From Rossellomorea aquimaris (GTDB taxonomy: Bacteria; Bacillota; Bacilli; Bacillales; Bacillaceae_B): a DNA stretch of 64,000 bases. Every line of letters begins with the position of its first letter. Positions within the stretch are counted from its first letter, which is position 1. The notes beneath the pieces are model-generated. The model saw nothing but the letters and a program-made list of their open reading frames with translations. It searched no databases and had not been told where the DNA came from. This document shows, one piece after another, positions 35,066-36,398 of this stretch. The translations under genes were made by a program, and so were the position numbers. The DNA lies in NCBI RefSeq assembly GCF_000935355.1, contig NZ_JXZC01000004.1, positions 62,001 through 126,000 on the forward strand, read 5' to 3'.

Positions 35066-35138
35066 TTTTTACCTTTTGAAGTAAAAAGATTACGTTTGAA
35101 TGATAAAATATATTGCTTTTAGAAGTAAAATGGATTAC
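35066..35138 (+). promoter_or_regulatory. Repeated motifs upstream of the HTH/F1-beta-like gene
   Basis: TTTTTAC-N8-GTAAAAA (35066-35087) is an inverted repeat. GAAGTAAAAAGATTAC (35078-35093) and GAAGTAAAATGGATTAC (35122-35138) are direct repeats with centres about 44 bp apart. They could be self-binding sites of the HTH protein. Confidence 0.4.
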
Positions 35139-35166
35139 TCTATAAAGTAAGGAGGGGATATTTACC

Positions 35167-36216
35167 ATGGAAAATAATATAAGGTTGAATGTATCTTTGC
35201 TGCGCCGCCGTGTACCCAATCTCACGTCAGCTGCCAAAACGGTGGGGCTAAGGCCTGCGACGGTATCAAACTTGTGTACCGGAAAAATTTCTGTAGGTCG
35301 CGCCGAAGTGAAAACGATGGTAACGTTAGCGAATTTGGCCAACTGTACGCTGGATGAACTAATTATTCAAGGAGGGAAATTAAGTATGATTGAAACGGGG
35401 ATTAAATCGCTTGATTTGTTTGCTCCAATTGTTCAAGGTGGTACGAATGGATTCGTGGCCAGATCACAAGTTGGTCAATTTGTTGTACTGGCAGAATTGA
35501 CGAAAGTACTAAAAGACAAAGGCTACCAATCGATTTTATTGACATCAAATAAGACGTTCCCTGGGGTGAGTGATCTTGAGGTTTTTGTCGATTCGAAATG
35601 CCATACGATAGAAGATGCATTTGCAGAAGTTGCCCTTGTTGAGAACAAAGAGAGTATTCTTCTATATGTTGATCGTTCCTTTATCTTGTCAGGTGACCTG
35701 TATGAATTAAGAGAACGATTCGAAGCAGAGAGTTACCCTGAAATCACCACCATTTTGTTTGACCCAAGTGGAGAAGCGGTTGATGAAGATGACCCGTTCG
35801 GTCCACTCGATACCTTATGCTACTTCGACATTGATCTGGCTACCCGGGGCATTTACCCAGCCATACATCCCGTGCAATCTACATCGATTTTAATTGAAGA
35901 CGATACTCTGGACGCAACCCACACGACTATTCACAAGAAAGCAAAGAAACTACTAAGGCGTTACAAAGAAATACGCGTACTGATGAACACGATTGGTAAA
36001 GACAAAATACCTGAAGCAGATCTCGAACTATTTCATATCGGAGAACGATTGGAAGCCTACTTGAGTCAGCCATTCTACGTAGCAGAAGAATTCACCAAAA
36101 CCAAAGGTCAAACAGTCCATATCCAACACACCATCCAAGACATCCAAAAGATACTCCAAGGCAACTACAACCATATCAAACCAACAGATATGACCTACAA
36201 AGGGAAACTGAACTGA
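35167..36216 (+). CDS. HTH domain fused to a degenerate F1-ATPase-beta-like domain
   Basis: 349 residues. Residues ~1-66 form a Cro/XRE-like helix-turn-helix (LTSAAKTVGLRPATVSNLCTG). Residues ~76-340 align by eye with ATP synthase subunit beta: ETGIKSLDLFAPIVQGG (76-92), YVDRS at the Walker B site (168-172), RGIYPAIHPVQSTS (228-240), LLRRYKEI and SQPFYVAEEFT (300-310). The P-loop GGAGVGKT is replaced by ARSQVGQF (98-105), losing the Lys and Thr, so ATP hydrolysis is unlikely. The N-terminal beta barrel of AtpD is missing and the HTH stands in its place. AAGGAGGGG precedes the ATG. A role as DNA-binding regulator with a pseudo-ATPase sensor is inference. Confidence 0.75.
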   Translation: MENNIRLNVSLLRRRVPNLTSAAKTVGLRPATVSNLCTGKISVGRAEVKTMVTLANLANCTLDELIIQGGKLSMIETGIKSLDLFAPIVQGGTNGFVARSQVGQFVVLAELTKVLKDKGYQSILLTSNKTFPGVSDLEVFVDSKCHTIEDAFAEVALVENKESILLYVDRSFILSGDLYELRERFEAESYPEITTILFDPSGEAVDEDDPFGPLDTLCYFDIDLATRGIYPAIHPVQSTSILIEDDTLDATHTTIHKKAKKLLRRYKEIRVLMNTIGKDKIPEADLELFHIGERLEAYLSQPFYVAEEFTKTKGQTVHIQHTIQDIQKILQGNYNHIKPTDMTYKGKLN

Positions 36217-36296
36217 GGGACGGACCTTCAAATCACCTTAATGTAAATACAAATCGGATAGGGGCGGGCCACGACAGAAAGTCGAGGTCCGTCCCT
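36216..36296. repeat. Long-loop inverted repeat AGGGACGGACCT / AGGTCCGTCCCT
   Basis: Perfect 12-bp arms (36216-36227, 36285-36296) with a 57-bp loop that holds a smaller GGGCGGGCC segment. The left arm overlaps the stop codon of the HTH gene. The arm sequence recurs at 17054-17067. It may act as a terminator or be a dispersed repeat. Confidence 0.75.
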
Positions 36297-36398
36297 TGAC
36301 CGTTACTTTTTTCTTAATTTTGTGTAAGGTGAAAGAGGATTTCCGAGGAATTTGTCGTATGTGTAAAGTAATGACTTTATTTAGTAGGAGACAATTCG

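Follow-up and report, generated by a model that had tools for sequence, protein, structure and literature searches.

The sensor domain of BlaR1 and MecR1 is akin to beta-lactamases. These proteins resemble the gene described here as an idea, that of a resistance switch with an enzyme-descended sensor; they differ in that a membrane receptor reportedly works there with a separate repressor, whereas here sensor and helix-turn-helix (HTH) are in one protein (PMC9834060). In the TipA system two start codons are reported to give a regulator, TipAL, and a short drug-sequestering form, TipAS (PMC7762955). TipA shares with the present regulator an HTH joined to a ligand-binding domain and its own gene among the targets, ligand binding and autoregulation being predicted in our case; TipA is an activator with a MerR-type HTH, whereas here the HTH is of the Cro type, the operator position is repressor-like and the sensor fold is unrelated. 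Neither a MerR HTH nor the TipAS domain PF07739 is found among the Pfam matches of the regulator up to E 1. The F1-like/G1 ATPases of mycoplasmas (NF045858, NF045934; PDB 9io5) also feature an F1-beta that diverged from ATP synthase, but they are motor ATPase complexes. No transcription factor that senses through a rotary-ATPase subunit is described in titles and abstract openings, with few subscription journals covered; the author of an earlier note on this DNA knew of no regulator of HTH/F1-beta build. To our knowledge no HTH or operator is associated with the mycoplasma enzymes.

The regulator is encoded in a window of 64,000 nucleotides, the whole stretch of Rossellomorea aquimaris DNA that was analysed. 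Its open reading frame, coordinates and motifs are as the earlier note gave them (Table 1). We favour, with a probability of roughly 0.6, a one-component autorepressor whose dead F1-beta domain binds a ligand and releases detoxification-type genes.

Table 1. Features of the regulator locus (window positions) and genes found behind its operators in other genomes
Feature	Position	Strand	Basis or remark
Operator site TTACCTTTTGAAGTAA (predicted)	35069..35084	+	palindrome match
Degenerate operator site TTACGTTTGAATGATA	35090..35105	+	by eye, sub-threshold; in phase with the other sites
Operator site TTGCTTTTAGAAGTAA (predicted)	35113..35128	+	palindrome match
Operator site TTACTCTATAAAGTAA (predicted)	35135..35150	+	runs into AAGGAGG ribosome-binding site 35149-35155
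Regulator CDS, HTH/F1-beta-like	35167..36216	+	349 aa, stop included
Cro/C1-type HTH domain, residues 1-67	35167..35367	+	Pfam HTH_26 below cut-off; conservation in 77 sequences
AAGGAGG (35369-35375) and in-frame ATG of Met74 (35386-35388)	35369..35388	+	candidate internal start, 276 aa
F1-ATPase beta-like region, residues 74-349	35386..36213	+	RecA-like part and C-terminal helical domain; no barrel
Degenerate P-loop ARSQVGQF, residues 98-105	35458..35481	+	alignment of 77 members
Inverted repeat GGGACGGACC ... GGTCCGTCCC	36217-36300		3' of the gene; may be a dispersed repeat of these genomes
Terminator-like hairpin after the gene	36281..36300	+	consensus match only
M3 oligoendopeptidase targets			G009, G028, G030, G011, G033, G038, G222, G111, G197; G388 fragment
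TPR/alpha-beta-hydrolase-like targets			G028, G033, G006, G008, G030, G011
Acetamidase targets			G197, G234; FmdA_AmdA match in both
ABC exporter target			G224; triple operator

The kinship of residues 76-340 to the ATP synthase beta subunit, proposed in the earlier note, is borne out by Pfam, NCBIfam, PDB, profile-profile and Foldseek comparisons. Pfam ATP-synt_ab matches with 30.6 bits (cut-off 29.5), best at residues 78-116, and ATP-synt_VA_C, marking the C-terminal helical domain, at residues 246-325 with 32.2 bits (cut-off 24.7). The top NCBIfam model is atpD (TIGR01039; 118.8 bits, E 2.6e-34), the FliI, V/A-type and type-III ATPase models scoring far lower; this is a quarter of the 462.85-bit cut-off and the regulator is not an AtpD equivalog. 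AtpD chains are the closest PDB relatives (E 6e-29) and the profile-profile alignment with three AtpD sequences has 99.9% probability (E 7e-32). The AlphaFold model, made from 21 sequences, is poor (mean pLDDT 62.6, pTM 0.42); F1-beta chains rank top in the Foldseek search with it and in the VIA re-examination of the matches, and the structural matches listed consist entirely of F1-beta and its close kin. A small tree of 17 of the 77 family sequences, one HTH-less copy, three AtpD and three AtpA, with long branches and a tool warning, sets the regulator family apart from AtpD and AtpA, with AtpD as its neighbour.

The regulator shares with AtpD the RecA-like and C-terminal helical domains and the ETGIK, YPA..P..STS and SQPFxVAExFT motifs. 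It differs by its HTH in place of the barrel, its P-loop and deleted catalytic loop and its score far below the family cut-off, and no atp genes adjoin its gene at the loci examined. No N-terminal beta-barrel domain is found among the Pfam and PDB matches. The Cro-like HTH that the earlier note had placed there occupies residues 1-67, though under the Pfam cut-offs (HTH_26, E 0.006, 17.3 bits, cut-off 22; HTH_3, 13.9 bits, cut-off 23). Residues 27-40 are nearly invariant in the 77 sequences, G27, R29, A31-L36, G39 and K40 being the same in all of them, and the recognition-helix region reads GLRPATVSNLCTGK.

Matches at E<=1e-32 occur in 87 of 397 genomes of the order (one of them, G276, with a match of 135 residues only) and in 30 of 135 genera; a phylum-wide sample has matches in 3 of 398 genomes, source genome included. 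Named members come from Rossellomorea, strains filed as Bacillus, and Paenibacillus. Full-length relatives with 44-94% identity are spread across many genera, which excludes a chance or chimeric ORF. The 77-member set derives from 111 loci, leaving out L038, L105 and L106 as too short and repeats of identical proteins; 24 members form the close clade of the R. aquimaris gene. A C-terminal remnant with stops is all that is present in genome G002 (L038). In genome G573, which belongs to another class, a 46%-identical full-length relative (L104/L115) with a paired operator (E 0.004) is found in a fragmented assembly and may result from transfer or contamination. A phage or plasmid origin was considered and rejected: one relative stands out among the best 15 of 110 plasmid matches, on an 897-kb plasmid of Paenibacillus cellulositrophicus (50% identity, the next 29% or less; annotated 'hypothetical protein', with two operator sites 22 bp apart), and the phage matches (15 of 19 listed) are partial, with less than 80% query coverage, on the F1 part.

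Purifying selection is evident from dN/dS, whose median is ~0.07 across 48 close-relative pairs with dS 0.1 to 1.2. The HTH has the lowest dN/dS of the domains (0.03) and a mean identity of 0.78. The loss of the catalytic site could be taken as the mark of an ATP-synthase duplicate that moonlights or is decaying and has no part in regulation; such a reading is hardly credible against this selection, strongest on the HTH, and against the 44-57% identity that is kept over the full length beyond the close clade.

The P-loop GGAGVGKT of AtpD aligns with ARSQVGQF in the regulator. Its Lys is replaced by Gln in 77/77 non-redundant members and its Thr by Leu, Phe, Val or Ile in 76/77; the first Gly is Ala and the second Arg, each in 76/77. 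The earlier note's description of this site as catalytically dead is confirmed, and no intact nucleotide site is restored on better alignment. The Walker B Asp is retained in 75/77 and is followed by Arg in 76/77, versus Asn in AtpD. About 24 residues of AtpD after Walker B, the catalytic loop, are deleted in the profile-profile alignment, and the catalytic Glu and Arg positions are variable across the 77 members. Aromatic residues are found at positions 230 (Tyr or Phe in 77/77), 303 (Phe in 75, Tyr in 1) and 309 (Phe in 59, Tyr in 13, Trp in 1), which we take to be those of the adenine pocket. Nucleotide sensing, raised in the earlier note as a possibility, may or may not occur in this domain, with these aromatics kept and the phosphate site gone. 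The near-invariant new polar residues R99, Q104, E110, R170, D199, D206, R227, R264, R265, E268 and E296 suggest a remodelled pocket, not decay. Conservation of the aurovertin site, presumably at Q411/R412, was rejected as a clue since the site is altered, with Glu in 77/77 and Ala in 74/77.

A 16-bp palindrome, TTACTTTWWAAAGTAA, is localized directly upstream of the gene in 73/77 members. At least two copies are present in 68/77, mostly 2-4, and they are spaced by 22 bp (78 times), 21 bp (25 times) or 23 bp (22 times). Two sites 20-24 bp apart occur in 63/77 real promoters vs 0/1540 dinucleotide shuffles. To limit circularity, a matrix was derived from the 24 close-clade promoters and applied to the remaining 53, of which 46/53 score above the 99th shuffle percentile. 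The upstream repeats that the earlier note had seen at 35066-35138 are confirmed as part of a conserved array (35069-35150), in which the position of the degenerate site scores as operator in many close relatives. It can be stated with considerable confidence that the regulator binds these palindromes. The running of operator sites into the ribosome-binding site argues for repression, which we regard as probable. A series of 2-4 palindromes at intervals of about two helical turns speaks for cooperative side-by-side dimers. The ring on DNA imagined in the earlier note finds no support: the barrel, which we take to be the crown that holds the hexamer together, is absent, and the operators form a linear array every ~22 bp. 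A paralogue of ATP synthase turned into a regulator, as that note had proposed, is supported by the position nearer AtpD than AtpA in the small tree, the lost phosphate-binding site and the presence of operators where the note had pointed.

Four members (L058, L091, L096 and L108) have no site directly upstream. In three of them, L058, L096 and L108, the regulator follows an FmdA/AmdA acetamidase gene, and it is before this gene that the operator is found; in the genome of L091 the array (L277) is ~350 bp farther upstream. Loci L274 and L277 (genomes G365 and G219) carry the array ~350 bp upstream of the regulator and beside a divergent TetR-like gene (TetR_N 20.9 bits, cut-off 24), so a second regulator may share it. 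Lone operator sites were discarded as evidence, their counts being no higher than those of a reversed control: in the source genome a single-site pattern with two mismatches has 99/102 matches vs 137/135, and a stricter one 8/7 vs 11/17. A sigma-70 promoter scan of the region gives none on the + strand and two on the - strand, vs a shuffle mean of 3.5; terminator-like hairpins number 3 vs a shuffle mean of 1.2. Genes for small multidrug-resistance proteins are divergent and just upstream of the regulator in L031 and L039, an assignment made by a Multi_Drug_Res match for one protein in L031 and by eye for the others.

A two-site operator profile, modelled on 38 of 57 paired promoters with the near-copies L002-L021 and L061 left out, was run on 36 genomes of the genus, 199 genomes of the order and 40 further regulator-positive genomes. 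Thirty of the 199 genomes have a match at E<=1e-3 and the regulator is present in 30/30, most of these matches being the regulator's own promoter, the source of the model. The first regulator-negative genomes (G170, G195) match at E 0.0014, and the 1e-3 limit was chosen in knowledge of these lists. It might be that the palindromes are read by another transcription factor, of which the HTH/F1-beta gene is merely one target: binding of regulator to operator is predicted from sequence, the HTH falls below its Pfam cut-off and the TetR-like gene shares the array in two genomes. This is most improbable given the presence of the regulator in all 30 genomes with a match at E<=1e-3, the result in the genus genomes that lack a copy (G026, G027 and G034: no match or E >= 0.43), a best match of E 0.03 in G002, where the remnant alone is left, and the near-invariance of both HTH and operator.

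Nineteen further sites at E<=1e-3 (11 in the genus set, 6 in the 199 genomes, 2 in the set of 40) were found, all in regulator-carrying genomes. They precede genes coding for M3 oligoendopeptidases (10), alpha/beta-hydrolase-like proteins (6), acetamidases (2) and an ABC exporter (1). Independent co-occurrence amounts to 6 off-site places in 5 of the 199 genomes, because the other two sets are all or nearly all regulator-positive (32/36 genus genomes have an intact regulator and the 40 were chosen for it). The regulator very probably controls the hydrolase genes. The earlier note mentioned neither these targets nor the possible Met74 start codon.

All nine intact M3 proteins pass the TIGR02289 cut-off; Pfam Peptidase_M3 (E 0.001) misses L197 and L203, both named as M3 by NCBIfam. 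Among the M3 genes of the genus returned as loci, those of the target clade (48-100% identity) have a paired operator in 6/6 cases, with scores of 24.6 to 36.9, and the paralogues of ~41% identity in 0/24, with all scores at -0.4 or lower. The six TPR/hydrolases are one family, with ABhydrolase-like_N in three scanned; their gene is present in 6/36 genus genomes, all regulator-positive, and has a paired operator in 6/6 (scores 22.1 to 25.8). Pair scores of random windows have a 95th percentile of -2.1 and a 99th of 30.8, an upper tail that is contaminated since the windows were drawn from loci with true operators. In L084 and L103 the gene directly 3' of the regulator encodes an alpha/beta hydrolase. 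Among the weaker sites, one is before an alpha/beta hydrolase gene in G224 (L199, E 0.003), one before the HTH-less copy in G068 (L106, E 0.001) and one, a weak pair 22 bp apart, before an adenine-deaminase-like amidohydrolase gene in G012 (L196 5069-6883, E 0.003) that may or may not be a target. No gene of this kind follows the sites in G203, G219 (C1), G321 and G365 (C3:201108), at E 0.002 to 0.02, which resemble chance. In genome G388 a 111-aa N-terminal M3 piece (L272 3623-3958), matching M3 with 55% identity over 97 residues, is found beside an operator array, its gene seemingly broken.

The M3 peptidase, acetamidase and alpha/beta hydrolase are of catabolic type, as expected of a nutrient regulator that responds to some ordinary amide, ester or peptide on which the hydrolases feed and whose pocket is of F1-beta origin only incidentally. 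We consider this unlikely: an exporter-type ABC protein is encoded behind the triple operator, and the target set varies by species and is often empty, yet the regulator is strongly selected. Most genomes of the dN/dS pairs have no strong operator site except the regulator's own. Several unrelated enzyme families, mostly amide- or ester-cutting, behind one operator argue for removal of a compound.

The hydrolase link rests on other species, as the source genome shows only the autoregulatory array among the matches listed: paired sites occur there in the regulator's own promoter only, and four of its five profile matches are listed, three in that promoter and one, with E 0.095, on C41. True sites can escape the profile search, as the source genome's own promoter reaches only E 0.019. 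This genome is devoid of the TPR/hydrolase gene and its M3 protein is a paralogue of ~40% identity. Neighbourhood was dropped as a functional guide, since flanking genes differ outside close relatives among the loci listed.

Control of the atp operon was also rejected. The stretch C43:136000-147195 of the source genome, with atpA and atpD and up to the contig end, has no paired operator, its best pair score being 0.1 vs 22 to 37 for true hydrolase pairs. This bears on a sensor of energy or ATP-synthase state, in which the F1-beta remnant would couple transcription to ATP synthase assembly or activity by binding nucleotide or one of the alpha, gamma and epsilon subunits of that enzyme. The retained C-terminal domain, the aromatics of the presumed adenine pocket and the list of structural matches, all F1-beta or close kin, are in its favour. 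It is nevertheless quite unlikely: besides the missing operator, the P-loop Lys is lost throughout, the catalytic Glu and Arg are variable, the catalytic loop is deleted and the barrel absent, and the operators found elsewhere precede genes for hydrolases and an exporter.

Codon 74, where the HTH and the F1 part meet, is ATG in 72/77 members, and L095 and L097 have an ATG two codons before it; the residue is Ile in the three AtpD compared. A Shine-Dalgarno-like duplex of -6 kcal/mol or lower precedes codon 74 in 66/77, true starts in 77/77 and 24% of all codons; the internal site is weak in 11/77 members, L026-L031 among them. On average 23% of synonymous codon shuffles are as strong, so part of the signal follows from amino-acid choice. 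Genome G068 has a stand-alone gene for an HTH-less dead F1-beta protein (L106 4422-5231, 269 aa) behind three operator sites; it starts at the Met aligned with Met74, and the long gene of that genome (L081) has ATA at codon 74. A Met conserved where the two domains join is suggestive of a second product that lacks the HTH; the candidate Met74 start and the separate gene of G068 resemble the short form TipAS of the TipA system. That such a product is made and sequesters the ligand is a tentative proposal.

In the favoured reading, HTH dimers would sit on the palindrome repeated 2-4 times on one helix face upstream of the regulator's own gene and, in other species, on the same operators upstream of the M3 oligoendopeptidase, alpha/beta hydrolase and acetamidase genes. 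The sensor would be the F1-beta domain without P-loop and catalytic loop, with its C-terminal domain, aromatics and new invariant polar residues. Ligand in the remodelled pocket would weaken the affinity for DNA and release the genes, whose enzymes or exporter would then remove the ligand. There is about an even chance that the inducer is a small molecule of xenobiotic or antibiotic type.

The sensor being a copy of F1-beta suggests that the compound may bind F1. The F1-beta duplicate could then be an alarm that mimics the target of natural products attacking ATP synthase and also a sponge for them, a possibility we judge rather doubtful. The long form would repress until inhibitor binding releases the genes; the extra protein, part of it lacking the HTH (made from Met74 or, as in G068, from a gene of its own), would soak up the inhibitor; and in some species the co-controlled peptidases, esterases and amidases would destroy it. 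No such target-mimic sensor is described in titles and abstract openings of a literature with few subscription journals covered.

One annotated record of the family bears the name 'hypothetical protein'. If the sensor reads F1 inhibitors, the regulator would be a natural biosensor for compounds targeting ATP synthase, and the M3 peptidase, hydrolases and amidase would form an unrecognised resistance regulon. Whatever the inducer, the question lends itself to direct testing, as the regulator/operator pair is conserved across many families.
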